Shown in pieces: positions 39,199 through 57,712 of a stretch of DNA of 64,000 nucleotides. Under the pieces are notes generated by a model. That model ran no database searches and was not told where the DNA came from. It was given only the letters and a program-made list of their open reading frames with translations. The DNA is taken from positions 248,001 to 312,000 of the forward strand of contig JAPZUD010000004.1 of NCBI GenBank assembly GCA_027533425.1, read 5' to 3'. A program made the translations under genes and the position numbers. Numbering within the stretch: the stretch's first letter is position 1; every line of letters starts with the position of its first letter. This DNA is from Beijerinckiaceae bacterium. Lineage in GTDB: Bacteria > Pseudomonadota > Alphaproteobacteria > Rhizobiales > Beijerinckiaceae.

Positions 39199-39243
39199 TC
39201 AACCAAAGGGTTAGGCCAGAGATGAACCGGCCCTTCCACGTGT

Positions 39244-39819: not shown

Positions 39820-39860
39820 GCGGTCTTCCGGGGCATTCAGCCTATAAAATAACCAACAAA

Positions 39861-39877
39861 AACAATTGTTTGCAAAC
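39861..39877. promoter_or_regulatory. Two overlapping palindromes between tlpA-like and TAXI genes
   Basis: AACAATTGTT (39861-39870) and GTTTGCAAAC (39868-39877) are both perfect palindromes and share three bases. They stand in an AT-rich patch 42 bases before the tlpA-like start and 105 before the TAXI gene, so a single regulator could act on both. The centre TGCAAA recalls LacI-type operators, but no such regulator is in the window. Confidence 0.45.
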
Positions 39878-39981
39878 AAACCCCGGGGAAGCCCCCATTG
39901 CAACCGCGTTCCGCCTGTGGCATTCAGGAACGATGCGCTACCGCGTGAGAATGGCGCAAGAATGATGGGTGGAGAAACGGC

Positions 39982-40947
39982 ATGACATTTCCGATGCGCA
40001 AGACGATCCTCGCGGCCATGGCCGCAGCCGCCATGATGGCACCGGGCATCGCCCGGGCGGACTTCATCAACGTTCTGACCGGAGGCACATCCGGCGTCTA
40101 TTATCCGATGGGCGTCGGCATGTCGAAGCTGTTCGGCGAGAAGATCGCCGGCGCCCGCCCGAGCGTTCAGGCGACCAAGGCTTCGGTCGAGAACCTGAAC
40201 CTGCTCCAGCAGGGCAAGGGCGAGATTGCGTTCACCCTGGGGGATTCGGTCATTTCCGCCTGGAAGGGCGAGGCCGAGGCCGGTTTCCCGGCGCCGTTGA
40301 AGAAGCTGCGCGGCATCGCCGCGATCTATCCGAACTACATCCAGATCGTGGCCTCCAAGGAATCCGGGATCAAGACGCTGGCGGACCTGAAGGGCAAGCG
40401 CCTGTCGGTGGGCGCGCCGAAATCCGGCACCGAGCTGAACGCCCGCGCCATCCTCGCCGCGGCAGGCCTGTCCTACAAGGATCTCGGCAAGGTCGAATAT
40501 CTGCCCTTCGCCGAATCCGTCGAGCTGATGAAGAACCGCCAGCTCGATGCAACGCTGCAATCCGCCGGTCTCGGCGTGGCCTCGATCCGCGACCTCTCGA
40601 CCTCGGTCGAGATCGTGATGGTGGAAGTCCCGCCGTCGATCGTTGACAAGGCCGGCCTGCCGTTCATCCAGGGCGCGATCCCGCCGAACACCTATACCGG
40701 TCAGACCAGCCCGGTCAGCACGGCGGCGGTGATGAACTATCTCGTGACGCATGACGGCGTGTCGGAAAAGTTGGTCTACGAGATGACCAAGTCGATCTTC
40801 GAGAACCTGCCGGCCATCGCCGCGGCCCATGCGGCCGGCCGGGCCATCAAGCTGGAAAATGCGGTGAACGGCATGGCCATCCCGTTGCATCCGGGCGCGG
40901 CCAAGTACTTCACGGAAAAGGGCATCAAACTGCCGGCTACCAATTGA
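39982..40947 (+). CDS. TAXI-family TRAP transporter solute-binding protein
   Basis: 321 residues with a signal peptide (ILAAMAAAAMMAPGIARA). The family marker is NVLTGGTSGVYYPMGVGMSKLF, followed by VENLNLLQQGKGEIAFTLGD. TAXI proteins feed ligands such as dicarboxylates or aromatic acids to fused TRAP permeases. GGTGGAG precedes the ATG; a second ATG at 39994 is possible. Confidence 0.94.
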   Translation: MTFPMRKTILAAMAAAAMMAPGIARADFINVLTGGTSGVYYPMGVGMSKLFGEKIAGARPSVQATKASVENLNLLQQGKGEIAFTLGDSVISAWKGEAEAGFPAPLKKLRGIAAIYPNYIQIVASKESGIKTLADLKGKRLSVGAPKSGTELNARAILAAAGLSYKDLGKVEYLPFAESVELMKNRQLDATLQSAGLGVASIRDLSTSVEIVMVEVPPSIVDKAGLPFIQGAIPPNTYTGQTSPVSTAAVMNYLVTHDGVSEKLVYEMTKSIFENLPAIAAAHAAGRAIKLENAVNGMAIPLHPGAAKYFTEKGIKLPATN

Positions 40948-41041
40948 GGCCAATGCCTGACTTGTGTTGAATGACCGGCCGGGCTCGCTCCCGGCCGGTC
41001 ATGTCGTTCCGGACAACCTCACCGGCTCCATAGGTGTGTTC

Positions 41042-43344: not shown

Positions 43345-43716
43345 ATGGGCGCCTGCCTGCTCGTCTCGGGAAAGGCCCTTGCGCTTGCGGCGCCGCTCTT
43401 CACCCTCGGCTGGACGCATTCGGTCGAGAAGGTTGAATGGGAGGAGACCTGGCGCATCGATGGGCCGCGCCTCGTCCTTGAACAGGCCCGCGTGAAGGGC
43501 TCGGGCGCCGGCATGGAACCGCCGCCGGAGGCGCGGTTGCTGGACGGCTGGTATGTCTGGCAGCCGGGGCGGAGCGAAAGCCGCATCGTGCTTGCTGCCT
43601 CGGGCACGACCGGATCGGGCTGGCGGCTGTGTTCCGGCGGGCAATGCCAAATGCTGGGCGAGAACGCAGCCAGCCCCGTTCATCTCGAACCCTGTCCGGC
43701 GCTCACCCGCCCCTGA
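43345..43716 (+). CDS. DUF1850 protein associated with TAXI-type TRAP systems
   Basis: 123 residues. Conserved blocks FTLGWTHSVEKVEWEE and ARVKGSGAGMEPP define DUF1850. These proteins are often encoded beside TAXI permeases; their role is unknown. The hydrophobic start may be a short leader. Its end overlaps the end of the convergent amidohydrolase gene by 14 bases. Confidence 0.85.
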   Translation: MGACLLVSGKALALAAPLFTLGWTHSVEKVEWEETWRIDGPRLVLEQARVKGSGAGMEPPPEARLLDGWYVWQPGRSESRIVLAASGTTGSGWRLCSGGQCQMLGENAASPVHLEPCPALTRP

Positions 43717-45076
43717 GGCGCCGCGCGCTGACCGGACGGCCGACGCCCGGCGACGCGACGATCCGCCCATCCCGGGCAACCAATTGCCCGCGAAGGAAGG
43801 TCATGACCGGCAATCCGCGTGTCCGGAACCCCTCGAACGGCGTCACATTCCCGAGTGAATGCAGCGCCTCGCCGCGGATCATGCCCTCGCGGTTCATGTC
43901 GATCACGACAAGATCGGCATCGCCCCCCGGCAGGAGCGTCCCCTTCAGCGGGAACAGGCCGAAGGCGCGGGCCGGCGCCTCGCAGGCCATTCGCACATAA
44001 TCCGGCAGGGTGATCCGGCCGTCATTCACCGCCGTCAGCATCAGCCGCATCGAGGTCTCGACGCCCGGGAAACCCGGCGCCACCTCCCAGATCGAAGCGC
44101 GCGCTTTCTCCGCCGGCGCATGGGGGGCATGATCGGTCGAGATCATGTCGATCACTCCGCTTGCCAGCGCATCCCAGAGCGGGCCGGCATGGCCGGCCTC
44201 GCGCACCGGCGGCTTGACCCGCAAGGCGAGGTCGCCGACGCGCGGGGCATCGTCCATGCTGAGATAGAGATAATGCGGGCAGGTCTCGGCGGTGATGTCG
44301 ATGCCGCGTCGCTTGGCGGCCGCAATCAGCGGCAGGGAATCCCGGCAATTCTCATGCGCGATATGGATCGGGCAGCCCGTCCATTCGGAGAACAGCGTGA
44401 TCCGCGATACGGCCTCCACGGTCGCGAGATCGGCATGCTGTTCGAGATGGGCGGCGAGGTCATGCCGCCCGGCGGCTTTCAGCTTCGCGCCGCGCCAGGC
44501 GAGAATCGGCGTGTTTTCCGCATGAACGGTACAGCGGATGCCAAGTTCGGCGAGGATGCCCAGCGCATCGTGCACCGCGCCGTCATTCGGGCAGGGTACG
44601 AGCGGGTTGTCGCTGCCGAGATAGAGCTTGAACGCCACCGCGCCGGCTTCGGCCATCGGCGCAAGCTGGTCGAGATTGGCCTCGCCGATATAGCCATAGA
44701 CGCCGAAATCGACGCAAGCCTGCGCCGAGGCGAGGGCCAGTTTGGCGCGGACGGCGCCGGCATCGGCGGTCGGCGGATTGGTGTTCGGCATGTCGAACAC
44801 GGTGGTCACCCCGCCGATCGCGGCCGCCTGCGTGGCCGTGGTCCAGGTCTCCTTGTAGGAAAAGCCCGGTTCGCGGAAATGGACATGAACGTCGATTGCG
44901 CCGGGAAGGACATGGCGCCCCGCGACATCGACAACCTCGCGGGCTGGCGGCATGGCTGCATCGCTGCCGATGGCGACAATCCGCCCGTCCTTCACCGCCA
45001 CGGCGCCGGGCTTCACCCCCTCTGGCGTGACGAGAATGCCCCCGGCCAGGACGAGATCGACAAGGCCGCGCGTCAC
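43703..45076 (-). CDS. Dihydroorotase/hydantoinase-family amidohydrolase (distal copy)
   Basis: 457 residues with a complete two-metal site: HVHFREPG (about residues 64-71), the lysine to be carboxylated in AVAFKLYLG (about 150), histidines in VHAEN and HIAHENC, and aspartate in STDHAPH. It would open a cyclic amide ring such as a hydantoin, dihydropyrimidine or related compound. GTG start overlapping the upstream stop as GTGA. It is the last gene of the ten-gene operon and is a paralogue of the gene at 51727. Confidence 0.88.
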   Translation of the reverse strand: MTRGLVDLVLAGGILVTPEGVKPGAVAVKDGRIVAIGSDAAMPPAREVVDVAGRHVLPGAIDVHVHFREPGFSYKETWTTATQAAAIGGVTTVFDMPNTNPPTADAGAVRAKLALASAQACVDFGVYGYIGEANLDQLAPMAEAGAVAFKLYLGSDNPLVPCPNDGAVHDALGILAELGIRCTVHAENTPILAWRGAKLKAAGRHDLAAHLEQHADLATVEAVSRITLFSEWTGCPIHIAHENCRDSLPLIAAAKRRGIDITAETCPHYLYLSMDDAPRVGDLALRVKPPVREAGHAGPLWDALASGVIDMISTDHAPHAPAEKARASIWEVAPGFPGVETSMRLMLTAVNDGRITLPDYVRMACEAPARAFGLFPLKGTLLPGGDADLVVIDMNREGMIRGEALHSLGNVTPFEGFRTRGLPVMTFLRGQLVARDGRIVASPGVGRPVSARRLRGG

Positions 45077-46527
45077 GGGATCGCCCTCGCAATCGCTTCG
45101 GCCGCAGCGAAGAGGTCGGCATTGCGCCGCTTCAGGCTGCCGATCCGGTCCCGCATCTCGGCCAAGGCTTCGGCGGCGCCGAAGGTAAGGATGCGCCCAT
45201 CCTCGACAACGAGGCAGCCATCGACCAGCACATGCGAGACGGCCGCACCGGTTTCGGCGAAGACCAGCTGCGCAACCGGGTCATTCACCGGCACCCACCA
45301 TGGCCGGTCGAGCCGGTAAAGCGCCAGATCGGCCCGGAACCCCGGCGCCAGCCGGCCGATCCGGCCTTCGAGCCGAAGCGCCTTCGCGCCGCCCTCCGTC
45401 GCCATGCGCAACGCGTCCCGCGCACTGACCCAGCGCGTCCGGTCGGGCAGATCGGCCCGATGCAGCAGGGCGGCGGCGCGCATGGCTTCCTGCAGGATCA
45501 GGTTGTCATTGGCGCCGGAGCCATCCGTCCCGAGCGCGATCGGCACGCCGGCGGCCAGCATGTCGGGCGTGCGCATCCGGCCGGCCCCGATCCTGGCATT
45601 GCTCTCCGGATTATGGACGGCGACCACGCCATGCCCGGCCATGCGTGCGATATCGGCATCCGTCAGCCAGAGGCAATGCGCGCAGGACCAGCGGCCGGAC
45701 AGCACGCCCAGCCGGTCGAGATGCTCCACCGTCGTGGTGCCGTAACGCCGTGCGGCAATCTCGGCCTGCGCCCGGGTTTCCAGAAGATGGGTATGGATGC
45801 CGAGATCGTGCTGCTCGGCCAGTTCGGCGCAGAAGACCAGCGCCGCATCGCTGCATCGGTCCGGGTTGGACGGCGCAGGAAAGACGCCGATCCGGCCTGC
45901 ATGGCCGTGCCAGTTCCGGATGATCTCCGGCATCTCCTCGCGCAGGGCTTCGAGGGGATGCGGCTTGAGGATATCGACCGAGGCCGCGGCCGCGGCGAGT
46001 TCGGGCGGAAGCCCCGCCCCGGCCGGCACGATATCGCCGAAATCCCCGTCGAAGAACCGCATGCCGAGTGTCGCCCGCATGCCTGTTTCCGCCCAGGCGG
46101 CGAGCACAGCATCCATTTCCGCCATCGTGAAGCGCTGGCCGGGGAAATGATCGATCGCGGCGGTCGTGCCGCTCTGCAGCATCTGCGTGGCACAGAGCAG
46201 CACGGCGAGGCGGATTTCGTCCGGTGTCCGGCGCGAGGTATGGGCCTGTGTCAGCCACATGAAGGCCGGATGGCTGAGCCGGTCGGCGAACCCGGCCATC
46301 GTGCCCGATTGGGAATGCATATGCGCATTCACCAGCCCGGGCACGGCCAGCAGCCCGCGGGCCTCGATCACGCGATCTGCCGTCGCGGCCGCGTCGGCGG
46401 GCACCATGCCGACGGCCTCGATCACCCCGTCGCGGATCAGGATGTCGCCGCTCTCGAGGATCCGCTCCGCCTCATCCAGCGCCAGGATCATCGCCTGCCG
46501 GACCAGCACCGTGCCGCCGTTCATCAT
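45073..46527 (-). CDS. Amidohydrolase of the chlorohydrolase/deaminase (TRZ/ATZ) group
   Basis: 484 residues. The mononuclear metal site is NAHMHSQSG (HxH, about residue 68), with histidines at HTHLLETR and AHCLW, and aspartate in LGTDGSGAN. Relatives deaminate guanine, S-adenosylhomocysteine, melamine-type triazines or other N-heterocycles. A cytosolic protein. The ATG is preceded by GGAGGAG and overlaps the upstream stop as ATGA. The substrate is probably an intermediate of the same pathway as its operon partners. Confidence 0.85.
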   Translation of the reverse strand: MMNGGTVLVRQAMILALDEAERILESGDILIRDGVIEAVGMVPADAAATADRVIEARGLLAVPGLVNAHMHSQSGTMAGFADRLSHPAFMWLTQAHTSRRTPDEIRLAVLLCATQMLQSGTTAAIDHFPGQRFTMAEMDAVLAAWAETGMRATLGMRFFDGDFGDIVPAGAGLPPELAAAAASVDILKPHPLEALREEMPEIIRNWHGHAGRIGVFPAPSNPDRCSDAALVFCAELAEQHDLGIHTHLLETRAQAEIAARRYGTTTVEHLDRLGVLSGRWSCAHCLWLTDADIARMAGHGVVAVHNPESNARIGAGRMRTPDMLAAGVPIALGTDGSGANDNLILQEAMRAAALLHRADLPDRTRWVSARDALRMATEGGAKALRLEGRIGRLAPGFRADLALYRLDRPWWVPVNDPVAQLVFAETGAAVSHVLVDGCLVVEDGRILTFGAAEALAEMRDRIGSLKRRNADLFAAAEAIARAIP

Positions 46528-47528
46528 GGCAGGGCTCCTCCGCCCGCGAGATCAAGCCGCAGGCCGCGCCCCTGCGCCTCGGCCCGGGCCACGATATGCT
46601 CGGCCAGAACCACATCCTGAATGGCGAGACCCATCGACTTGAACACACGGAGATCGCATCCCGCCGAGAGCGGCAGCCCACCCGCCGGCACGGCGCCGAT
46701 CTCGGCCCGGATCCGCTCCGGAACCAGCGCGCCGCTTTCCAGAGCCAGCCGGATGTCGCCGGCCTTTTCCGTCGCGCCCTTCCGCGCATCGAGATAGAGA
46801 TCGGCCCGGCGCATCAGCGTGTCATCTGCCTCGCGGGCATCGGGGCGGTTGGCACCCCCCAGGATGATGCAGGCTCCGGGCATGACCGCCCCGCCGGGAA
46901 AGACCGGCTGATCCGATGTTGTCACCGTCGCAACAAGATCGGCATCCGCCACGGCGGCTTCCGGCGAGGCGGCGCAGACGATCCGGGTATCGGCAAGATC
47001 GGGCCAGAGCGCCGCTTGCCGCGCCAGCGCCTCGACGCGCCCGGGCGAACGGCCGGCCAGCCGGATCTCGCGCAAGGTTGGCCGCACGGCTTTCAGATAG
47101 CGCAGGGTCAGCGGCGCGCTCTTGCCGGCACCGAACAGGGCGAGGATCCCGGCATCGGGCGCGGCGAGCCTGTCCGCGCCCACGGCGAAGCCTGCGGCCG
47201 TGCGGTGATCGTTGAAAGCCCGCGTCGCCAGCAGTGCGCGCGGCTCCGCCCGGCGCCAGTCCCACAGGGTCAGCAGGCTGCCCCAGAGGCGTGGGGCGTC
47301 CGGCCCGTCCGGATAGGCATGGACATTGCTCTTGATCGACAGCGCTTCGGCGCCGCGCGCGCCGCCCAGGATCAGGCAGCCGGCCTTCGGATCACCATGG
47401 CGGAGATCGCCGCGGACAGGGGGTGCCGCGGCGCCTTCGGCATGGAGCCGGAAGGCCCGCTCGGCACAGGCCAGGGCATCGGGCAGGGTGATCAGCGCCT
47501 CGATATCGGCCTCGCCCAGGAACAGCAT
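46524..47528 (-). CDS. Ornithine cyclodeaminase / mu-crystallin family protein
   Basis: 334 residues from the ATG at 47528. The block LFGAGKSAPLTLRYL is the Rossmann loop, and GACIILGGANRPDAREADD is the family substrate strand. The family includes ornithine cyclodeaminases and imine/ketimine reductases using NAD(P)H. In this operon a cyclic imine or amino acid released by the hydrolases is a possible substrate. It lies four bases after the upstream amidohydrolase stop. Confidence 0.83.
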   Translation of the reverse strand: MLFLGEADIEALITLPDALACAERAFRLHAEGAAAPPVRGDLRHGDPKAGCLILGGARGAEALSIKSNVHAYPDGPDAPRLWGSLLTLWDWRRAEPRALLATRAFNDHRTAAGFAVGADRLAAPDAGILALFGAGKSAPLTLRYLKAVRPTLREIRLAGRSPGRVEALARQAALWPDLADTRIVCAASPEAAVADADLVATVTTSDQPVFPGGAVMPGACIILGGANRPDAREADDTLMRRADLYLDARKGATEKAGDIRLALESGALVPERIRAEIGAVPAGGLPLSAGCDLRVFKSMGLAIQDVVLAEHIVARAEAQGRGLRLDLAGGGALP

Positions 47529-47532
47529 CGGC

Positions 47533-48972
47533 TCAGCAGCAACCGAGGCGTTGCAGGTAATGCCCGCGCACGGCGGCTTCGAAGGCGGGCAGGGCTGCGG
47601 CAAATTCCGTCCGGCTGGCCATTCCGGCGCGATAGGCGGCACGGAGTTCCCGATGCGCGGCTTCGAGATCAACGCCCACCACGCGGCCACGGCTGACGAT
47701 GGTGCGCCCGGCCACGATGACCTCGCGGATATGGCTGCGATTGGCCCGGGCAAACATCAGGTCGAGCGGATCGACCGGCATCAGCGCATCCTCATCCAGC
47801 GCGGCCCGGTCGACCAGCACGAGATCGGCGGCGGCGCCCTCGCTCAGCACGCCACCTTCCGGCGCGCCGATGGCGAGGCGACCGGTCTCGAGCGCCATGC
47901 GCAGGATATCGACCGGGGCCAGTTCCGTGTCGAAGCCCCAGCCGGCATGGAGCGACCAGAGCAGCCGCATCTCGCGCAGGGCGTCATCATCCTCGTCGAA
48001 AGCCTGCCCGTCTATGCCAAGGGCCACGCGGCAGCCGCGCCGCAGCATCTCGGCAACCGGAGCAATGCCCGAGCGCAGCGCGAGGTTCGACGAGGCGTTG
48101 GTGGCAATGACGCAACCGGCCTCGGCGATCATCTCCAGCTCGTCCGGCCGCGCCCAGACGCAATGCGCCAAGGTGAGGCGTGGCGAGAGGAGGCCAATCT
48201 CCTTCCAGCGCCGGACCAGCCCGCCGGGATAGGTCCGGTCAGCCCAGTCCCGCTGGTATTTTGTCTCGAAGAGATGGGTGGTCACGCGCCGGCCGGTGCG
48301 GGCCGAGGCCTCGGCAATGGCTTCCCACATCGGCTCGGAACACCATTGCGGCCCGTTTGGCCCATATTGCACATCGACCATCGGCCCGCCGACCGCCTCG
48401 GCCACCGCATCGACAAGGGCAAGCTGTTCACGGATCGGCGGCACCGGTCCGAGGAAGCGCTGCCCGATCGCGGCCTGTTCCGCGGGGCCAAGGGCCGCCA
48501 GCACGCCGGCATGATCGCCATAGACCAGCGGATTCTGGTCGCGCAGGCCGATTCCATAGGCGATCCGCACGCCGACATCCAGGGCGGCGCGGGCAATCTC
48601 GCGCGCTTCCGTCGGCAGGTCCGTCAGCCCCATCGCCCGCGTGGCATGGACCATGACGCTGCCCTGGCCGCCCAGGGCGGCCCGGGCCAGCGGCGCCACG
48701 GCGGCCAGGTAGGGTTCCACCGGCACCATCAGCGCCAGCCGGTGCAGCCAGATTTCAAGCGGCTTGCCGAAGCCGCCGATCGAGCTGGTCCGGATTGGCC
48801 GTGCATGGTCATGCGCATTGGCCAGCGCCGGGAGGACAACGACGTCCTCCGCTCCTTCCGCCATGGCCTCGACGGCGCAGATCCGACCATCCTCGAGAAC
48901 CAGCTGGCGGTCGGTGAAGCCGCCTCGCGCATCGACCCCGTGGCGGGCGGTAAGTTCGCGCAAGGCGGACAT
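47533..48972 (-). CDS. Second TRZ/ATZ-type amidohydrolase
   Basis: 479 residues. The first metal motif is NAHDHARP (HxH; aspartate between the histidines), followed by TTHLFET, LAHCVW and GIDGQAFDEDDD as the remaining metal and acid positions. It is a cytosolic member of the deaminase/hydrolase branch, clearly diverged from the neighbour at 45073. GAGGG precedes the start. The substrate is unknown. Confidence 0.83.
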   Translation of the reverse strand: MSALRELTARHGVDARGGFTDRQLVLEDGRICAVEAMAEGAEDVVVLPALANAHDHARPIRTSSIGGFGKPLEIWLHRLALMVPVEPYLAAVAPLARAALGGQGSVMVHATRAMGLTDLPTEAREIARAALDVGVRIAYGIGLRDQNPLVYGDHAGVLAALGPAEQAAIGQRFLGPVPPIREQLALVDAVAEAVGGPMVDVQYGPNGPQWCSEPMWEAIAEASARTGRRVTTHLFETKYQRDWADRTYPGGLVRRWKEIGLLSPRLTLAHCVWARPDELEMIAEAGCVIATNASSNLALRSGIAPVAEMLRRGCRVALGIDGQAFDEDDDALREMRLLWSLHAGWGFDTELAPVDILRMALETGRLAIGAPEGGVLSEGAAADLVLVDRAALDEDALMPVDPLDLMFARANRSHIREVIVAGRTIVSRGRVVGVDLEAAHRELRAAYRAGMASRTEFAAALPAFEAAVRGHYLQRLGCC

Positions 48973-48981
48973 CGCCGGCCC

Positions 48982-50025
48982 TCAGCTCTTCGGCGCGGCG
49001 AGCTTGCGCTCGGCCAATGGCGGCAGGAAGGAGCGGTTGAACACTTCCGCCATGGTCGGCGCCTTGGGCAGGCCGAACGCCTCGACGATCTGTGCAATCG
49101 CCTTGCCCATCCGCTCGTCCGAGACATCGCCGGCGCCGATCTTGTCGGTTTCCGGCGTGAACATATGGGCACGATAGGTGAACTCGACGCGCTTGGCCTC
49201 GATCTCCGGATTCACCGTCGGCTCGACCCGGGCCATCACCTTGCCGGCTTCGGCGGGGTTCGCGGTCAGCTCCAGCATCGCGCGGTTGACGGCGCGCACC
49301 AGCCCGGCCACGGCCTTCGGGTTCTCGCGGATCAGCTTCTGCGAGACCATCACGCCGTTGGAATAGGCCTCGATGCCATGATCGGAATACATGATGAAAT
49401 TGTAGTCCTTGTCCGGGTTCAGCCGCATCCCGATCAGGTTCATGTAGGAGGTCACGGTGAAGACGAAGCCGCCATCGACCTGCCCCTGAACCATCATCAT
49501 TTCCTGGACCGAGGGGGCGATATTCACCACCTCGACCTTGCTGGCATCGAGCCCGTTCAGCTTGGCGAAGATCGGGAAGAGCCGGTGCGTGGCCGAGCCG
49601 GCCGGCGAGGTCAGCTTGCGACCCTCGAGGTCCTTCAGCGTCTTGATCGGGCTGTCCGCCTTGTGGATGATCGCGAAGGGCGCCTTGTTGTAGATCATGT
49701 AGACCATGACCGGCGCCTCGCCCGGCTTGTTCACCGCCTGCTGGATGATGGCGTTCATGTCGCCGAACCCGGCATCATAGGCGCCGGACATGACGCGCGT
49801 GACGGTGGCGGCCGAGCCTTCGCCCTGATCAATGGTCACATCGAGGCCCTCGGCGGCGAAATAGCCTTTCTCCTTGGCGTAGAAATACCAGGCATGGACG
49901 CCCTGGTATTTCCAGTCGAGCGTGAAGCGGATCTTGGTCGGGCTCTGGGCCGAGGCCGGTGCCGAGAGGCCGAACGTGGCAGCGGCGAGGGTGGCAAGGG
50001 CGGTCTTGAGGAAAAGGCGACGCAT
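48982..50025 (-). CDS. NMT1/THI5-like ABC substrate-binding protein (copy 2)
   Basis: 347 residues with a signal peptide ([23 protein letters not shown]). The start of the mature protein, [15 protein letters not shown], and [15 protein letters not shown] place it in the NMT1/THI5-like group, whose members bind pyrimidine precursors, sulfonates or other small organic acids and amines. It is encoded next to its permease. Its paralogue lies at the start of the operon (53999). AGGAG precedes the ATG. Confidence 0.9.
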
Positions 50026-50064
50026 GGAAGTCTCCTGGGTTAGGGGGAGAGAGAGCGAGGTCTT

Positions 50065-50847
50065 TCAGGGCGAGGCGAGATCGGTCTTCCGGTGGGCCCA
50101 GCCGGTGACCCGGTGCTCGATCAGCGAGAACAGGACGTAGAGCGTGACGCCCAGCCCCGCGAGAACGAACAGGCCGGCAAAGACCAGCGGCACGTTGAAG
50201 CTCGAGGAGGCGATCATCATCATGTTGCCGATGCCCCGGTTGGAGGCGACGGTTTCGGCGACGACCGAGCCGACAAAGGCGAGCGTGATCGCCACTTTCA
50301 GCGCGGCGAAGAAATAGGGCATCGAGCGCGGCAGGCTGACATTCCAGAGAATGTCGAGCTTCGATGCCTTGAGCGTCTTCATCACATCCTCGAGCTCGGG
50401 CTCGACCGTGGCGATCCCGGTGGCGACATTCACCACGATCGGGAAGATGCAGATGATCATCGCCGTCAGGATGGCCGGAACCGTGCCCGCGCCGTACCAG
50501 AGCACGAAGATCGGCACGACCGCGACCTTGGGGATCGAGGAAAAGCCGACCAGCAGCGGATAGGCCGTGTCATAGGCGAGCCGCGACGAGCCGATCAGCA
50601 CGCCGAGGAACAGCCCGATCACCACGCCGATGCTGAACCCGACCAGCGTCGTGTAGAGCGTCTGGTAGGTATGCGGCCAGATGGCCGGCCAGAACTTCAC
50701 CAGCGCGGCAACGATCTGGGTCGGGCGCGGCAGCAGGATGTCGGAGATATTGGCGACGAGGCAGAACAGCTCCCAGGCGACGAAGAAGCCGAGGATCAGC
50801 GCCGTCGAGGCGCCTTTCTCCCGCATGGTGTCGAGAATGCGTTCCAT
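50065..50847 (-). CDS. ABC transporter permease (SsuC/TauC/ThiX type)
   Basis: 260 residues, six membrane helices starting GASTALILGFFVAWELF. The EAA loop near PELEDVMKTLKASKLDILW, with NVSLPRSMPYFFAAL, docks to the ATPase. The ATG at 50847 follows GAGGAGG; an upstream frame from 50886 adds a charged leader overlapping the ATPase gene and is not preferred. Confidence 0.92.
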   Translation of the reverse strand: MERILDTMREKGASTALILGFFVAWELFCLVANISDILLPRPTQIVAALVKFWPAIWPHTYQTLYTTLVGFSIGVVIGLFLGVLIGSSRLAYDTAYPLLVGFSSIPKVAVVPIFVLWYGAGTVPAILTAMIICIFPIVVNVATGIATVEPELEDVMKTLKASKLDILWNVSLPRSMPYFFAALKVAITLAFVGSVVAETVASNRGIGNMMMIASSSFNVPLVFAGLFVLAGLGVTLYVLFSLIEHRVTGWAHRKTDLASP

Positions 50848-50857
50848 CGGTCCCTCC

Positions 50858-51730
50858 TCAGGCCGCGCCGGGCGGATGGCTGACAATGCCGGTACCGCCC
50901 CGCGCGCCGACGATCATCGCGCGCAGCTTCTGGTTCAGTTCGACAAAATCCGGCTGGAAGGTCATGTCGATCGTGCGCGGGCGCGGCAGCTCGACGATCT
51001 GGTCGTCGAGGATGCGGCCCGGCCGCGCGCTCATCACGCAGATCCGGCTGGCGAGATAGGCCGCCTCGCGCAGGTCATGCGTGACGAGGATGACCGTGAG
51101 CTTCTTCGACAGCCAGAGATCCTGCATGACGGCCCACAATTCCTCGCGGGTGAACTGGTCGAGCGCGCCGAAGGGTTCGTCGAGCAGCAGCAGGTCCGGG
51201 TCATGCACCAGAGCGCGGCAGAGATTGGCGCGCTGCATCATCCCGCCGGAGAGCTGGAACGGAAATTTCTCGGCAAAGCCGGCCAGGCCGACCTGCTTCA
51301 GCAGGGTCTCGACACGGTCCCGGAACTCGCTGTTCCGCTTGGCGCGGAAAGCCTGCCGGAAGGGCGGCACGATCTTCAGCGGCAACATCACGTTGTCGCG
51401 GATATTCAGCCAGGGCAGCAGGGTCGGGTTCTGGTAGGCCATGCCGATGCGGATGGGATTGGCGCCGATCTCGCGGCCGGCCACGAAGACGAAGCCTGTG
51501 CTCGGCTTCAGCAATTCGCCGACCATTTTCAGGATCGTCGACTTGCCGCAGCCGGAAGGCCCGACAAGGGCAACGAACTCGCCCTCGGCGATCTTGAGCG
51601 AGGTCGGCGCCAGCGCCTGCACGGCGCGCGCCCCCTTGCCATAGGTGATCGAGGCATTCTCGAATTCGATGAACGGGGCGGACGGGGCCGCCGTACTGCC
51701 GGGATCGGCCGGTCGGACCTGCGCATTCAC
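50858..51730 (-). CDS. ABC transporter ATPase (SsuB/TauB/ThiZ type)
   Basis: 290 residues, GTG start with AAGGAGG six bases upstream. Walker A GPSGCGKST, signature LSGGMMQRANLCRAL, Walker B LLLLDEPFGALDQ, H-loop LVTHDLREA. It powers the permease downstream. The GTG overlaps the hydrolase stop as GTGA. The only ATPase-permease set in the operon serves two binding proteins. Confidence 0.93.
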   Translation of the reverse strand: MNAQVRPADPGSTAAPSAPFIEFENASITYGKGARAVQALAPTSLKIAEGEFVALVGPSGCGKSTILKMVGELLKPSTGFVFVAGREIGANPIRIGMAYQNPTLLPWLNIRDNVMLPLKIVPPFRQAFRAKRNSEFRDRVETLLKQVGLAGFAEKFPFQLSGGMMQRANLCRALVHDPDLLLLDEPFGALDQFTREELWAVMQDLWLSKKLTVILVTHDLREAAYLASRICVMSARPGRILDDQIVELPRPRTIDMTFQPDFVELNQKLRAMIVGARGGTGIVSHPPGAA

Positions 51731-53181
51731 GATGAGCCTCCTTGGCTGGGCAGGGATGGTCCTCGCAAGACTGCGGCCAATGTCTGGTCGGTATTGCACG
51801 GCCGGGCCGCCGGCATCTGCTGGATCGCCGTAACCTGCTTGCCCCAGCCACTGGTCTCCTCGACGAGGCGGCGGTCGCGCTGGACGAAACGCCCGCGCAC
51901 CAGCGTGTGGATCGGCACACCGGTAACAGTGACGCCCTCGAACGGCGTGATCTTGCCGCGCGAATGCAGCGCGGACGCCGTGATTGTCTCGGTCCGGTCG
52001 AGATCGACCACCGCGATATCGGCCTGCGCCCCGGCCTCGATCCGCCCCTTGGCCGGCCAGAGGCCGAAGGCACGGGCCGGGTTCTCGGCCGAGATTTTCA
52101 CATAATGCTCAAGCGTGATGCGCCCCTTTGCCACTTCGTTCAGCATCAGGGGCATCTGCGTCTCGACGCCCGGGAAGCCGCAATCGGCCTCCCAGATGAT
52201 GCTCCTGGTCTTTTCCTCCGGCGTATGCGGCGCATGGTCGGTGGCGATCATGTCGACAACGCCGCTCTGGAGCGCCTGCCAGATCGCGGCGGAATCGCTT
52301 GCCTCGCGGACCGGCGGGTTGACGCGGATGACCGAGCCAAGCCGTTCATAGTCCCGGCTGTCCAGCAGGAGGTAGCAGGGACAGGTCTCGCCGGTGATCT
52401 CGACACCGCGCGCCTTGGCATCGGCCAGCGGACGCAGTTCCGCCGCCGAGGAGATATGCAGCACATGGATTCGCGCGCCGGTCCATTCGGCGAGTTCGGC
52501 CGCGCGGCTCACCGCCTCCGCCGCCACGATGGCCGGCCGGGCGGCAATATGGGCAAGCGGATCGTTCCGCCCGGATTCCATCAGCCGCTTCTGCCGCCAG
52601 GCCATGATCGAGGCAGTTTCGGCATGGAGCGAAATCCGCAGCCCGGACGGCGCGATGATCTCGAACCCTTCGAGCATCGCCCCGGTCGAGGGCGAGGGCA
52701 GGTTGCCGAAGGTGTTGCCCATGAAGCATTTGAAGGCGTTCACGCCGCCATCGATCAGCCCCTGCAGCTCGTCGATATTGTCCTCGGCAAGCAGGCCATA
52801 GATGCCGAAATCGACATGCGATTTCTCGGCCGCCTGCTGCTTCTGGCGCAATTCCCTGACCGAGCGCGTCGGCGGATGCGTGTTCGGCATCTCGAAAACC
52901 GTCGTCGTCCCGCCCATCGCCGCGGCAGCGCTGCCAGTCCGCCAGTCTTCCTTGTGGGTGTAGCCCGGCTCGCGGAAATGCACATGCACATCGATCGCGC
53001 CGGGCAGCAGGAACATGCCGCTGACATCGACCGTCTCGCGCGCGGCCGGCATGGCGGAAGGGTCGCCGACCAGCGCGATCAGGCCGTCCTTGATGGCAAT
53101 GTCGGCGCGGTAACGCGTCATGCCGGTGACGACGGTGCCGCCAGTCAGGACCAGGTCGGCCAGGAAGGGTTCCGGACTCAT
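51727..53181 (-). CDS. Dihydroorotase/hydantoinase-family amidohydrolase (proximal copy)
   Basis: 484 residues. Complete two-metal site: HVHFREPGYTHKED, lysine in NAFKCFMGNTFG, SLHAET, HVLHISSA and ATDHAPH. It shares the FREPG...MPNT.PPT and DHAPH blocks with the distal copy at 43703 but differs around the substrate loops, so the two may act on different rings. About 28 extra residues after the barrel (from GKQVTAIQQMPAAR) are poorly conserved. GAGGG precedes the ATG. Confidence 0.88.
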   Translation of the reverse strand: MSPEPFLADLVLTGGTVVTGMTRYRADIAIKDGLIALVGDPSAMPAARETVDVSGMFLLPGAIDVHVHFREPGYTHKEDWRTGSAAAAMGGTTTVFEMPNTHPPTRSVRELRQKQQAAEKSHVDFGIYGLLAEDNIDELQGLIDGGVNAFKCFMGNTFGNLPSPSTGAMLEGFEIIAPSGLRISLHAETASIMAWRQKRLMESGRNDPLAHIAARPAIVAAEAVSRAAELAEWTGARIHVLHISSAAELRPLADAKARGVEITGETCPCYLLLDSRDYERLGSVIRVNPPVREASDSAAIWQALQSGVVDMIATDHAPHTPEEKTRSIIWEADCGFPGVETQMPLMLNEVAKGRITLEHYVKISAENPARAFGLWPAKGRIEAGAQADIAVVDLDRTETITASALHSRGKITPFEGVTVTGVPIHTLVRGRFVQRDRRLVEETSGWGKQVTAIQQMPAARPCNTDQTLAAVLRGPSLPSQGGSS

Positions 53182-53188
53182 CGCGCCC

Positions 53189-53983
53189 TCACAGCATGGC
53201 CCAGCCGCCATCGACCGGCAGGTCGACGCCGCTGATCTGGCGGGACACCTCGGAGGCGAGGAACAGGCAGGCATGGGCCACGTCCTCGTCGGTCGAGACG
53301 CGGCGCAGCGCGTAATCGGCCGCGTGTTTCTGGACGGCTTGCTCCTCCGTGATCCCCAGCCGCGCCGCCATTTCCGGCACGACCTTGCCGCGGAAGCGCG
53401 GGCCATCGACCATGCCGGGCGCCACGCAATTCACGTTGATATTGTAGGGTCCGGCCTCAAGCGCGAAGCTCTTGGTAATGCCGCGCAGGCCCCATTTCGA
53501 GGCGGAATAGGCCATGCGGCCGGCGCGGCCACGCATCCCGAAGGTCCCGCCGACATTGACGATCTTGCCGTCGCGCTGGGCGATCATGGTCGGCAGGCAG
53601 GCCCGCATCGTGTTGAAGCAGCCACGCATATTGAGATCGACGATCTCGTCAAACTCGGCCTCGGTTGTCTCCCAGCCCGTCTTGCCGATCGGGCCGGATC
53701 CCCCCGCCACATTGACCAGCACGTCGACGCGCCCGCCGAACGCGGCCTTCGTCTCCGCAACTGCCGCATTGCAGGCTTCGCCCCGGGTAATGTCGCAGGC
53801 GATGACGATCGCCTCCGCGCCGCCCGCCCGTACCTCGGCCGCGACCGGCTCGATGGCGGCGACATCCCGCCCGAGCAGGGCCAGCCGGCTGCCCTCCGCC
53901 GCGAAGGCGCGGGTGATTGCCGCGCCCATGCCCTTGGCGGGGCCGGTGATCACCACCACCCGGTCTTTCAGTTTCAGATCCAT
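53189..53983 (-). CDS. Short-chain dehydrogenase/reductase of the amidohydrolase operon
   Basis: 264 residues. Coenzyme loop TGPAKGMGAAI, structural block VNVAGG and YSASK are intact. The usual catalytic serine, expected 13 residues before the tyrosine, is a glycine followed by threonine (NVGGTFG), so activity may be altered or the threonine may substitute. It oxidises or reduces an alcohol/ketone intermediate, by inference from context. The adjacent genes are in the same operon, gaps of 7 and 15 bases. Confidence 0.83.
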   Translation of the reverse strand: MDLKLKDRVVVITGPAKGMGAAITRAFAAEGSRLALLGRDVAAIEPVAAEVRAGGAEAIVIACDITRGEACNAAVAETKAAFGGRVDVLVNVAGGSGPIGKTGWETTEAEFDEIVDLNMRGCFNTMRACLPTMIAQRDGKIVNVGGTFGMRGRAGRMAYSASKWGLRGITKSFALEAGPYNINVNCVAPGMVDGPRFRGKVVPEMAARLGITEEQAVQKHAADYALRRVSTDEDVAHACLFLASEVSRQISGVDLPVDGGWAML

Positions 53984-53998
53984 GATCGTGCTTCCGGC

Positions 53999-55072
53999 TC
54001 AGATCAGCTTGGTAATGCGATCAGCAATCGGCGGCAGATAGGCGCGGCTGAAGATCTCGCCCGGTGCCGGGCTGCGCGGCAGGCCATCCGCCTCCACGAC
54101 AATGCCGATCGACTTCGCAAACCGGGCATCGTCGATCTCGCCGAGGCCGAGTTTCGCGAGTTCGGGATGGCTCATCTCGTCGGCCAAGGTCGCGAGCAGG
54201 CGCTCCTTCTCGACAACCTTGTTGATCAACGGTTCGCGCTTGGCCACGGCTTCGACCGCGGCATCCGGGTCCTTCAGCGTGTCCTTCAGGCCCTTGTTGA
54301 TGGCCGCGAGCAGGCCCTTCAGCGCCCCCGGATTCTCGGTGACCAGCTTGCGCGAGGCGATCACCGCGTTGGAATAGAGATCCATGCCGAAATCGCCGTA
54401 ATTGATGAACCGGAAGTCCTTGTCCGGATTGATCCCGACCAGCTTGGCCGAGAAGCGGATCGTGTTGACGAAGCCGAACACGCCATCCACCTGCCCGCGC
54501 TGGAGCATCTGCTCGCGCAGGTTCGGCTGCATGTTCGTGATCTGCACTTTCGACAGGTCCACTCCGACCTGCTTGGCGAAAGCCGGGAACAGCTTGAGCG
54601 CGCCGTCATTGGCCGGCCCGCCGAGCGTGCGACCCTCGAAATCCTTCGGCGTCTTGATCGGCCCATCCGCCTTCACCGCGATGGTGAAGGGCGGGCGATT
54701 GTAAAGCGCGGAAATCGCCAGCGGCGTGTTGCCGCCCGCCGGGCCCTTGGCCACCAGCTGGATCAGCGCGTTGATATCGCCGAAGCCGAGATCATAGGAG
54801 CCCGAGGCGACCGCGCCGACCGCGGCCCCCGAGCCATTGCCCTGGTCCATCGTGATCTCGAGCCCGGCCTCGCGGAAATAGCCGCGATCCTCGGCGAGGA
54901 AGAACCAGCCCTGTGGCCCCTGGTAGCGCCAGTTCAGCACCATCTTCAGCCGGGTCAGGGATTGGGCCAGGGCCGGGCGCGGCAGGCTGGCGGCCAGTGC
55001 CGTCCCGCCAAGGCCGAGGCCGAAAGCCCGTCGTGAAATGCCTCCTGAAGTGTCCGATGCCATGTCAACCAT
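53999..55072 (-). CDS. NMT1/THI5-like ABC substrate-binding protein (copy 1), twin-arginine signal
   Basis: 357 residues. A twin-arginine signal (SRRAFGLGLGGTALAASL) indicates export after folding, unlike copy 2 which has an ordinary signal. The mature start LNWRYQGPQGWFF and GYFREAGLEITMDQG are plainly related to copy 2 ([13 protein letters not shown]). It is the first gene of the operon, facing the divergent LysR gene. The ATG at 55063 is an alternative start. Confidence 0.9.
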   Translation of the reverse strand: MVDMASDTSGGISRRAFGLGLGGTALAASLPRPALAQSLTRLKMVLNWRYQGPQGWFFLAEDRGYFREAGLEITMDQGNGSGAAVGAVASGSYDLGFGDINALIQLVAKGPAGGNTPLAISALYNRPPFTIAVKADGPIKTPKDFEGRTLGGPANDGALKLFPAFAKQVGVDLSKVQITNMQPNLREQMLQRGQVDGVFGFVNTIRFSAKLVGINPDKDFRFINYGDFGMDLYSNAVIASRKLVTENPGALKGLLAAINKGLKDTLKDPDAAVEAVAKREPLINKVVEKERLLATLADEMSHPELAKLGLGEIDDARFAKSIGIVVEADGLPRSPAPGEIFSRAYLPPIADRITKLI

Positions 55073-55178
55073 CCCCGTATCCAGATCGGAATGGACGCTA
55101 GGGGAGTTGACCGATGCCGTCTTCTGCTTATTTCTTGCCAGACCTGTTCGAAAAAAGCACCGCTGGGAGAGGCCGGTC
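55073..55178. promoter_or_regulatory. Divergent promoter region of the amidohydrolase operon and LysR gene
   Basis: 106 bases between the two starts. TTGACC near 55107 followed by an AT-rich stretch (TTATTTCTT) could be the LysR-side promoter. A GAAAAAAG run lies near 55150. No clear palindrome was found. Confidence 0.35.
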
Positions 55179-56102
55179 GTGAAACATCTGCGCCTCCTGA
55201 ACTATGTCGACGAAGTCGCGCGGGTCGGCTCGATCCGCCGCGCGGCCGAGCGGCTCAACCTCACCGCCTCGGCGCTCAATCGCCGGATCCAGGATATCGA
55301 GGAGGAACTGGGCACGCCGATCTTCGAGCGCCTTCCGCGCGGTGTACGGCTCAATGCGGCCGGCGAATTGCTGATCCGGCATATCCGGACGCAGCTTGCC
55401 GATATGAGCCGCGTCCGCTCGCAGATCGAGGATCTCTCCGGGTTCCGGCGCGGCACTGTCTCGATCGCCTGCAGCCAGGCTTTGGCCTATGAGCTGCTGC
55501 CGAGCGTCATTGCGGCCTACCGGCATGAATTCCCGCTGGTCGAATTCGAGGTGAAGGTCCGAGACCATTCCGATGCCCTGCGGGCGCTGGCGGAGTTCGA
55601 GGTCGATCTCGCCATGGTGTTCCGGCCCTCGCTGATGGCCGATTTCCAGGTCCTCGCCTCGGTCGAGCAGCGGGTCGTCGCGATCATGGCGGCCGATCAT
55701 CCGCTGGCCGGCCGGCCCAGCCTTCGCCTGCGCGATTGTGCCGCCTATCCGCTGGCCTTGCCCGATCCGAGCTATGGCGGGCGTCAGCTGCTCGACGAGG
55801 CCACGGCGCGGAGTTCCTTCCGCTTCCAGGCGGTGGTCGAGTCCAACTCCTTCGAGTTCCTGCGCAATTATGTGCGCTTCGAGCAGGCGATCACGTTCCA
55901 GATCGAGGTGGGTGCGCCGGCCACGCTGAAGGAACGGCATGGCCTCGTCTCGCGCCCGGTCGACCTGCGCGACATGCAGCCCGCCCGGCTGGCCATGGGT
56001 CAGCTCCGCGGCCGCGCCCTGCCGGTGGCGGCGGCCAAGTTCGCCGAGCAGCTCGGCCGGCGCTTCACCGGCCCCCCGGTCACATCCATTTCGGAACCGT
56101 GA
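55179..56102 (+). CDS. LysR-family transcriptional regulator
   Basis: 307 residues from the GTG at 55179, preceded by GGGAGAGG. The helix-turn-helix is GSIRRAAERLNLTASALNRRI (key residues: the AAERLN and SALNRR helices), followed by the co-inducer domain. A frame open from 55038 adds 47 residues of unlikely leader. It is divergent from the ten-gene operon and probably controls it. Its 3' end overlaps the LOG-family gene by 23 bases on the opposite strand. Confidence 0.9.
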   Translation: MKHLRLLNYVDEVARVGSIRRAAERLNLTASALNRRIQDIEEELGTPIFERLPRGVRLNAAGELLIRHIRTQLADMSRVRSQIEDLSGFRRGTVSIACSQALAYELLPSVIAAYRHEFPLVEFEVKVRDHSDALRALAEFEVDLAMVFRPSLMADFQVLASVEQRVVAIMAADHPLAGRPSLRLRDCAAYPLALPDPSYGGRQLLDEATARSSFRFQAVVESNSFEFLRNYVRFEQAITFQIEVGAPATLKERHGLVSRPVDLRDMQPARLAMGQLRGRALPVAAAKFAEQLGRRFTGPPVTSISEP

Positions 56103-56670
56103 CCTTGCGGAAGGTCATCAGCCCGTCGATCAGCCGGCCGGGTTCGGGCTCCACCACGATGCCGTTCCGGTGTTCCGGCGGCAGGAACCTTTGGCCGATC
56201 ATGTGGTCGATAAAGGCGAGGAAGGGCTGGTAATAGCCCGCCACATCGAGCAGCCCTGCCGGCTTGTCGATCTCGCCGAGCTGGTTCAGCGTCCAGATCT
56301 CCATGAATTCCTCCAGCGTCCCGATCCCGCCGGGCAGGGCGATGAAGGCATCCGCCAGTTCCGCCATGCGCGCCTTGCGGGCCCGCATGGAACCCACGAT
56401 CTCGCTGGCATCGAGGTCCGGATGCAGATGCCCCCGATCGGCGAGGCGCTGCGTGATCACGCCATGCGCCGTGCCGCCCGCCGCACGCGCGGCATCGGCC
56501 AGCAGGCCCATCAGCCCCTTGTTCGTTCCGCCATAGACCAACGTCATCCCCCGGCTGCCGATGGCCTGGCCGAGCGCCTTCGCGGCCTCGATATAAGTCT
56601 CGCCGAGCCCGGTATTCGATCCGCAGAAGACGGCGATGGACCGGATGGGGCGGGGAGCTTCTGGCGACAT
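56080..56670 (-). CDS. LOG-family (TIGR00730) nucleoside 5'-monophosphate phosphoribohydrolase
   Basis: 196 residues. The family motif PGGIGTLEE (about residue 110) and GGTNKGLMGLLA are present. LOG-family enzymes release the base from cytokinin-type or other nucleotides; in bacteria they are often housekeeping. It runs convergent with the LysR gene, overlapping it by 23 bases. Confidence 0.92.
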   Translation of the reverse strand: MSPEAPRPIRSIAVFCGSNTGLGETYIEAAKALGQAIGSRGMTLVYGGTNKGLMGLLADAARAAGGTAHGVITQRLADRGHLHPDLDASEIVGSMRARKARMAELADAFIALPGGIGTLEEFMEIWTLNQLGEIDKPAGLLDVAGYYQPFLAFIDHMIGQRFLPPEHRNGIVVEPEPGRLIDGLMTFRKVTVPKWM

Positions 56671-56767: not shown

Positions 56768-57712
56768 ATGATGTTCGAGCTGAAGGCCTCTCCCGAAACC
56801 GCGCATTGGGGTTATTTCGATGCGGGTCTGGCGCCGGCCCTGCGCGTGCCCAGCGGCGCGACGGTGCGGATCAGCAGTGTGTCCGGCACGCGCGAGGTCC
56901 TGCCGCCCGCCGGTTTCCATGTGCCGCCGGAACTTCACGCCATCCATGCGGCGCAGGTCGGCCTGCCGTTCGGCCCGCATATCCTGACCGGCCCCGTCCA
57001 TGTCGAGGGGGCCAGCCCGGGCGATGTGCTCGAGGTGCGCATCCGCGAGGTCGGGCTGCACCAGGATTGGGGCTTCAATTTCAACCGCCCGCTGGCCGGC
57101 ACCCTGCCGGATGATTTCCCGACCTATCACCTCATGCATATCCCCCTCGATGCGAAGCGGATGATCGGCACCCTGCCCTGGGGCCTCGAAGTGCCGCTGG
57201 CGCCGTTCTTCGGGGTGATGGGCGTCGCCCCGCCGCCGGCCTGGGGGCGCTGTACCTCGATCATTCCCCGGGCTTTCGGGGGCAATATCGACAACAAGGA
57301 GCTGGTGGCGGGCACCACGCTCTACCTGCCGGTCTTTGTCGAGGGTGCGTTGTTCTCCTGCGGCGATGGCCATGCCCTGCAGGGCGATGGCGAGGTCAAC
57401 GTCACGGCGATCGAGACCGCGCTTGTGGGCACGTTCGAACTGGTCGTCCGCAAGGACCTGCACTTCACCTATCCGCGCGCCGAAACGCCGACCCATGTCA
57501 TCACCTGCGGCATGGATCCCGATCTCGACAGATGCGCCGAGAAGGCCCTGCGTGACATGATTGCGCTGGTTGTCGAGCGGACAGGCCTGACGCGCGAACA
57601 GGCCTACGGGCTCTGCTCCATCACCGCGGATCTCCGGATCACGCAGACGGTCAACCAGCACAAGGGCGTGCATTGCATGCTGCGGAAGGACTATCTGGTC
57701 GGCCCGCGCTGA
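56768..57712 (+). CDS. Acetamidase/formamidase family protein
   Basis: 314 residues. The family blocks are GPHILTGPVHVEGASPGDVLEV, represented by GPVHVEGASPGD, then FGGNIDNKEL and GDGHALQGDGEV. These enzymes hydrolyse short amides such as formamide to ammonia and acid. That fits the amide-opening operon nearby, where a small amide could be released, but they are separately transcribed. AAAGGA precedes the ATG; the next codon is also ATG. Confidence 0.88.
   Translation: MMFELKASPETAHWGYFDAGLAPALRVPSGATVRISSVSGTREVLPPAGFHVPPELHAIHAAQVGLPFGPHILTGPVHVEGASPGDVLEVRIREVGLHQDWGFNFNRPLAGTLPDDFPTYHLMHIPLDAKRMIGTLPWGLEVPLAPFFGVMGVAPPPAWGRCTSIIPRAFGGNIDNKELVAGTTLYLPVFVEGALFSCGDGHALQGDGEVNVTAIETALVGTFELVVRKDLHFTYPRAETPTHVITCGMDPDLDRCAEKALRDMIALVVERTGLTREQAYGLCSITADLRITQTVNQHKGVHCMLRKDYLVGPR

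Follow-up and report, generated by a model that had tools for sequence, protein, structure and literature searches.

Cyanuric acid is mineralised by a named route in which cyanuric acid hydrolase (CAH, the AtzD family) is followed by BiuH or AtzE/G/H and then by AtzF, and a five-gene operon, atzDGEHF, has been described (PMC6219798; papers are cited throughout for excerpts of their text). The atzGEH neighbourhoods described in that excerpt have another make-up than the genes considered here, and the excerpt of PMC9456165 reports atzD and atzF in one cluster and contains nothing on the present gene context. The triuret and biuret pathway comprises TrtA, TrtB, BiuH and AtzF together with BmpA-Nup, and a gene set with BmpA-Nup, BiuH and TrtA has been described (PMC12625717). 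Here we compare these systems with a ten-gene operon and its divergent LysR gene on a 64,000-nucleotide stretch of a Beijerinckiaceae genome (contig JAPZUD010000004.1, positions 248,001 to 312,000). This whole stretch is called the window throughout, and its genome, G000, measures 3.75 Mb in 12 contigs.

We establish the gene content and order of the operon, its conservation across genomes, its co-occurrence with CAH and the position of the gene for a crystallised CAH (PDB 4NQ3) after one such set of genes. As to function, we place about half of our belief in a LysR-controlled system that would take up a nitrogen-rich ring of pyrimidine- or triazine-like type, hydrolyse it and usually feed the cyanurate-biuret-allophanate route. 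An earlier reading of the sequence alone (the sequence-only reading) had recognised no named pathway in these genes. This still holds for the upper part, which matched none in the literature searched, and no longer for the lower part: because the core of the operon includes or adjoins CAH in many relatives, the lower part is a named pathway (CAH and, in some, BiuH or AtzE, AtzH-like and AtzF). We regard the operon as a catabolic one for cyclic nitrogen compounds, with an upper part that we found described nowhere in that literature; the search covered open-licence titles and abstracts plus passages and returned no description of the module, which is not proof of absence. The atzDGEHF operon differs from it in having no SDR, dihydroorotase-like (DHO) or g4-type gene (labels below), and CAH of the window's genome lies in trans; the set with BmpA-Nup, BiuH and TrtA has a transporter of another family and none of the core enzymes.

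The operon and its conserved core

Ten co-directional genes run on the minus strand from 55072 down to 43703, with successive gaps from g1 to g10 of -4, -4, +4, +9, +39, +10, -4, +7 and +15 bases. They are given below in the order of transcription, after the divergent regulator; we define the core as g4 to g10 and the tail as g3-g2-g1.

55179..56102, plus strand: LysR-type regulator, 307 amino acids (aa), start re-set by a homologue
53999..55072 (the start may be 55063), minus strand: g10, second NMT1/THI5-type binding protein (PF09084), core
53189..53983, minus strand: g9, SDR (PF00106), core
51727..53181, minus strand: g8, DHO/allantoinase/hydantoinase-like cyclic amidohydrolase, 484 aa, core (TIGR00857, 345.7 bits)
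50858..51730, minus strand: g7, ABC ATPase (PF00005), core
50065..50847, minus strand: g6, ABC permease (PF00528), core
48982..50025, minus strand: g5, NMT1/THI5-type binding protein (PF09084), core
47533..48972, minus strand: g4, divergent TRZ/ATZ-like amidohydrolase, 479 aa, core (PF01979)
46524..47528, minus strand: g3, OCD/mu-crystallin family protein, 334 aa, tail (PF02423, 132.4 bits, cut-off 24)
45073..46527, minus strand: g2, TRZ/ATZ-like aminohydrolase, 484 aa, tail (nearest model 8-oxoguanine deaminase)
43703..45076, minus strand: g1, DHO/allantoinase-like cyclic amidohydrolase, 457 aa, tail (TIGR00857, 320.4 bits, cut-off 279.05)

This layout bears out the sequence-only reading, which had described ten tightly packed minus-strand genes (all present, with gaps of -4 to +39 bases). 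The families found agree with those that it named: two NMT1/THI5 binding proteins, a permease, an ATPase, an OCD/mu-crystallin protein, an SDR, two dihydroorotase/allantoinase-like proteins and two TRZ/ATZ-like amidohydrolases. Its divergent LysR gene is present too, with a corrected start: the ATG at 55038 would overlap g10, and the more likely GTG at 55179 gives 307 aa, matching the LysR of a relative in the genus. The complete metal sites that it had assigned to both DHO-like enzymes are also recovered, with HxH-K-H-H-D intact in 85 of 85 aligned rows of g8 (window included) and, by alignment, in g1. Both proteins pass the dihydroorotase-like model pyrC_multi (TIGR00857), membership of which is that of a broad family and not a function.

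Two other enzymes of the core are conserved at the level of single residues. The metal ligands of g4 (H54, H56, H233, E236, H270 and D321) are kept in 47 of 47 rows, D328, D330 and C478 are invariant in the same rows, and the predicted structure has a mean pLDDT of 89.9. The catalytic Ser that precedes YxxxK in classical SDRs is absent from g9: in the column compared with 2et6, its canonical position is taken by Gly146 (Gly in 84 of 85 rows, Cys in one), with Thr147, Tyr159 and Lys163 kept in all 85. This Ser-less SDR is nonetheless the best conserved enzyme of the set.

For the comparison across genomes, g4 was the initial bait: among 249 genomes of the order, 48 gave a match with E up to 1e-40, and the genes of 35 stretches around g4 matches and of four plasmid regions were clustered. 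The SDR, chosen for its conservation (77-82% identity in six relatives), was the bait for contigs of named genomes and gave 324 relatives, of which the best 80 loci were kept; the closest named relative by this measure is Rhabdaerophilum sp. SD176 (98%). Since these loci were picked by the SDR, its presence in them is uninformative, and since a simple GC-frame caller misses or truncates some genes, all gene counts are lower bounds. Eight earlier loci bring the set to 88, of which 57 are well flanked (at least 4.5 kb before and at least 8.5 kb after the SDR start).

We find the core in Alpha- and Betaproteobacteria, mostly in the same order (best 80 of the 324 relatives), with records from Bosea, Aureimonas, Skermanella, Xanthobacter, Bradyrhizobium, Tardiphaga and Azospirillum, and betaproteobacterial records that include Variovorax and Pseudacidovorax. 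The genes g10-g9-DHO are contiguous in 73 of the 80 loci and g10-g9-DHO-g7-g6 in 67 (CAH inserts ignored), with g5-g4 next in 35; in the remaining loci g5-g4 lies upstream, is uncalled or is lost at a contig end. Counted over the 57 well-flanked loci, g10 and DHO occur in 57 each, g7 and g6 in 56 each, LysR in 55, g5 in 45, g4 in 40 and CAH in 32, and g3, g2 and g1 in seven each. The gene-order comparison that the sequence-only reading had proposed has thereby been run, and the scattering in relatives that it had named as refuting is not seen for the core. Its proposal of one pathway for an N-heterocycle or cyclic amide stands for g4 to g10 plus LysR, whose order is conserved in two classes, and is supported less broadly for the tail, which occurs in 9 of the 80 loci, in the same order. 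The gene set is more than a chance collection.

Cyanuric acid hydrolase in and beside the core

Of the 80 loci, 38 include CAH, and in many of these it stands between core genes. Six AtzD-family copies that we scanned score 533-568 bits against a CAH model cut-off of 360. The copy of Azorhizobium oxalatiphilum is closest to PDB 4NQ3, and in genome G271 (genus Azorhizobium, locus L189) all 353 aligned residues of 4NQ3 are encoded unchanged, one base after core gene g4, in the order LysR, isochorismatase match (a 96-aa piece is called), g10, g9, DHO, g7, g6, g5, g4, CAH. The protein 4NQ3 is AZC_3892 of A. caulinodans, which has been crystallised and has a cyanuric acid activity of 11.5 umol/min/mg (PMC4051656), so that the orthologous core of a relative carries, after g4, the exact sequence of a proven CAH. 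The likeness to cyanuric acid mineralisation lies in this A. caulinodans-type locus, in five genomes of the window's genus where CAH also directly follows g4 (G250, G251, G252, G255 and G258), and in the BiuH or AtzE, AtzH-like and AtzF genes that stand near the module in some relatives.

Across the 249 genomes of the order, an SDR homologue (E up to 1e-90) occurs in 17 and CAH in 42. CAH is present in 15 of the 17 SDR genomes versus 27 of the 232 without SDR (Fisher 2e-11, kinship ignored), or by genus in 7/7 versus 14/104; the module itself is seen around the SDR in at least six of the 17 (G000, G065, G067, G115, G207 and G236). The window's genus, with 17 genomes, has CAH in ten, nine of which have the SDR, and the SDR is found in none of the seven without CAH. 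In the tenth CAH genome, G258, the contig breaks off at a run of g6-g5-g4-CAH. The five genus genomes with CAH that are not of the cis type (G000, G249, G259, G260 and G262) carry g2, which is present in 5 of the 17, and have CAH on another contig.

For the window itself, family scans find no AtzD among the ten genes, so the operon holds no CAH of its own. The CAH of its genome stands in trans at G000:C11:265541-266614. Its neighbours there are BiuH (429 bits, cut-off 370), AtzE, an AtzG-like gene, a BMP-type binding protein and genes that are likely to encode a permease and an ATPase. Also beside this CAH is a second isochorismatase, closest to PDB 6xix, which, judged by the context of PMC7948467, is probably the triuret hydrolase TrtA. 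In having a BMP-type binding protein, BiuH and a 6xix-like isochorismatase next to CAH, this region resembles the triuret and biuret pathway.

Genes for the steps below CAH are found near the module in some relatives. Full-length allophanate hydrolase (AtzF) occurs within the genus in just G250, G251, G252, G255 and G258, and in the first four of these it lies 3-10 kb from the SDR. In G251 (locus L177), the genes after LysR encode AtzF (771 bits, cut-off 511), AtzE and an AtzH-like protein (PF11533, named HpxZ by NCBIfam), and there is an AtzG match in addition. Relatives of BiuH (76-83% identity) are encoded about 10 kb or less from the SDR in Aureimonas (L096, L099, L126) and Variovorax (L106, L125, L145). 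The presence of allophanate hydrolase is by itself not specific, because 12 of the 17 genus genomes have a match over the cut-off and these include G082 and G253, which have no module. At G000:C5:100157-101811 the match is split into two neighbouring parts (model positions 2-411 and 432-563), and G082, G249, G253, G259, G260 and G262 show a similar split.

In the reading we favour, LysR would control a nitrogen-scavenging unit, in which an ABC importer with two THI5-like binding proteins would take up the nitrogen-rich pyrimidine- or triazine-like ring compound. The SDR (g9) would perform a redox step, and g4 and g8 may strip ring substituents and open amide bonds. In relatives with CAH, this hydrolase would then take over the products, and the route would continue through biuret and allophanate to ammonia. 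In the window's genome, where CAH belongs to a second operon on another contig, the present operon ends with g3-g2-g1 instead, putatively an alternative set made up of an imine reductase-like, an aminohydrolase-like and a cyclic amidohydrolase protein.

The tail, the loci without the hydrolase and rival readings

The tail is a lineage-specific end of the operon, a feature that had escaped the earlier note on this sequence. Judged by record title or lineage, its carriers all belong to the Hyphomicrobiales (Rhabdaerophilum, Bosea, Beijerinckiaceae and metagenome-assembled genomes, MAGs). A recent duplication of g8 can be rejected as the origin of g1, because the two fall in separate clades with 100/100 support. 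The score of g2 with its nearest model, the 8-oxoguanine deaminase NF006055, is 265 bits, under the cut-off of 532 (g4 scores 120.7). Judged by family, the tail probably supplies a different last section, in which g1 opens a cyclic amide, g2 deaminates and g3 reduces an imine. We also considered whether CAH in trans is general in tail-bearing genomes and reject this, there being none in L077, L079, L081, L085 and L091; the MAGs among these are L077, L079 and L091.

Several results weigh against an operon that drains into the cyanuric acid route. Tail and CAH share a locus in 0 of 9 cases, compared with CAH in 38 of 80 overall (P 0.002, kinship ignored), so the window-type operon is tied to CAH only through homology of the core and co-occurrence in trans; moreover, the five genus genomes that combine the tail with a CAH in trans are closely related (SDR 96-100%) and therefore amount to about one event. 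Twenty-seven genomes with a CAH-less module locus were tested, of which nine have CAH elsewhere and 18 have none. With G236, G249, G259, G260 and G262 added as genomes with CAH elsewhere, the tally over the 80 loci is 38 with CAH in the locus, 14 with CAH elsewhere in the genome and 18 with none, the remaining 10 being outside the test; that is, 52 of the 70 checked loci lie in genomes with CAH and 18 in genomes without. Eight of the 18 CAH-less genomes are titled MAG and may be incomplete, and ten are not, including Bosea L081 and L085, which have a window-type tail and no CAH anywhere in the genome. Because the core occurs in genomes without CAH, cyanuric acid is not an obligatory intermediate everywhere, and a strict version with cyanuric acid obligatory is ruled out by the hydrolase missing in 18 of the 27 tested genomes.

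The association is incomplete from the side of CAH as well, with 27 of the 42 CAH genomes of the order having no SDR. One of these, G010, has a CAH operon (L183) without adjoining core genes, and in some others there are relatives of g4 or the short form g7-g4. Biuret metabolism is described as mostly independent of cyanuric acid in the excerpt of PMC7948467. Among the best 25 models per protein, none of g1 to g10 reaches a specific-function cut-off, g4, g8, g9 and the tail are named by no specific model, and the top NCBIfam rank of the binding proteins is the sulfonate-binding SsuA family, under its cut-off.

The 18 of 70 checked loci in genomes without CAH speak at the same time for another reading, in line with the sequence-only one, in which the operon would serve the utilisation of hydantoins or cyclic imides, cyanuric acid would be no part of it, and CAH would stand beside it to serve a separate nitrogen source in response to the same nitrogen demand. 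Hydantoin and allantoin utilisation is alike in employing the cyclic amidohydrolase family of g1 and g8, the best solved relatives of g8 are the allantoinase 3hm7 and the hydantoinase 1gkr, and both proteins score highly with allantoinase models, g8 falling narrowly under the AllB cut-off (TIGR03178, 357.7 vs 357.85) and g1 under it at 340.6. In addition, the accessory gene AmdA (described below) is commoner where CAH is absent (12/18 vs 15/52, Fisher 0.01; with full flanks 6/9 vs 13/42), an excess that hints at substitution and may alternatively be a lineage effect. Against such a role stand the CAH genes in 38 of 80 loci, many between core genes, the D-hydantoinase cut-off (TIGR02033, 393.25), which neither g8 (333.5) nor g1 (307.7) attains, and the ten genes themselves, among which family scans find neither a carbamoylase nor a hydantoin racemase. 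A simple hydantoin operon is ruled out by these missing genes and missed cut-offs; the wider reading we judge unlikely, while granting it some real weight.

It is distinctly unlikely, in our view, that this operon breaks down pyrimidines (of the uracil, barbiturate or thiamine-pyrimidine kind) and supplies the URC uracil route. Ten loci do carry GTP cyclohydrolase II-like and DUF1688 genes across LysR (L092, L095, L101, L103, L105, L111, L113, L115, L118 and L132), nine of them with a uracil phosphoribosyltransferase (UPRT) gene as well, all of which we take to be URC genes. The binding protein g5 resembles THI13 and THI5: its first solved relative is the binding protein 4nmy (E 1e-16), followed by THI13, THI5 and the formylaminopyrimidine-binding protein (E 2e-9 to 2e-7), with taurine/sulfonate binders weaker. 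The extra isochorismatase of one URC-type locus is nearest RutB, about level with 6xix. On the other hand, URC-type genes are confined to these ten loci, with none among the window genes scanned, and the residues of CAH do not suit a barbiturate route. Barbiturase has Gln at position 188, and barbituric acid acts on cyanuric acid hydrolases as an inhibitor, without being cleaved (PMC4051656). Every one of the 45 further CAH sequences in the alignment, among them that of the window's genome, has Arg188 and the Ser226-Lys156 pair; CAH is thus not barbiturase-type, and a barbiturase-type pathway is ruled out. Finally, that transport and hydrolase genes have come together here by chance, with no pathway in common, is hardly credible in view of the conserved gene order, the start-stop overlaps and an intergenic block kept in every aligned stretch.

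Probable regulatory region, neighbouring genes and meaning

The immediate surroundings of the operon add three features.

55107..55156, no strand assigned: conserved block between LysR and g10, AGCA(G/C)AAGACGGCA
56080..56670, minus strand: LOG-type gene (TIGR00730 family, 173.4 bits, cut-off 96.35), accessory
56768..57712, plus strand: AmdA, acetamidase/formamidase family gene, accessory (solved relatives named acetamidase)

All 15 aligned stretches, from the window and 14 close loci, share the block, which is a probable promoter/operator region. The LOG gene, found in 18 of the 57 well-flanked module loci, and AmdA, found in 24 and scoring under the formamidase FmdA cut-off, belong to the conserved surroundings and lie outside the frame of the earlier note. 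In 25 of the 57 the module is accompanied by a DUF3830 protein (for example L032:13527-13940 and relatives); the term DUF3830 returned no paper in the open-licence literature. On the far side of the operon, window positions 38446-43339 hold a TAXI-type TRAP binding protein and a fused permease (39982-43339), preceded by an SDR gene and pointing towards the operon. Elsewhere in the order, one genus (g23; L035, L036, L042 and relatives) has the core or the short form g7-g6-g5-g4 beside potFGHI-, GlnK- and AmtB-like genes, neighbours fitting a nitrogen role.

PMC4051656 states that bacteria, plants and animals were not known to produce cyanuric acid naturally. Oxidation of uric acid can give cyanuric acid and triuret (PMC7948467), oxidation of guanine and 8-oxoguanine can give cyanuric acid (PMC10607741), and Paramecium secretes cyanuric acid (PMC12342508); for these reasons an oxidised purine is a fair, unproven candidate for the compound taken up. 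A more specific form of our proposal, which we consider rather unlikely, is that the core serves in nature as the upper part of a pathway to cyanuric acid and would import and dismantle an oxidised purine or another natural nitrogen-rich ring, with the window's tail as an alternative, CAH-free end of the same pathway and the Ser-less SDR as a redox enzyme adapted to ring C=N bonds. Candidate starting compounds would then be the oxidation products of uric acid or 8-oxoguanine.

The natural role of cyanuric acid hydrolases is an open question, and a module linked to CAH may help to explain it. If the core does form a natural upper pathway to cyanuric acid, this would help to explain why CAH genes are common, as in 42 of the 249 genomes of the order. 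The question becomes open to experiment with a conserved upper module that surrounds a crystallised hydrolase and whose two binding proteins lend themselves to direct screening; the module also gives several uncharacterised enzymes a common context.

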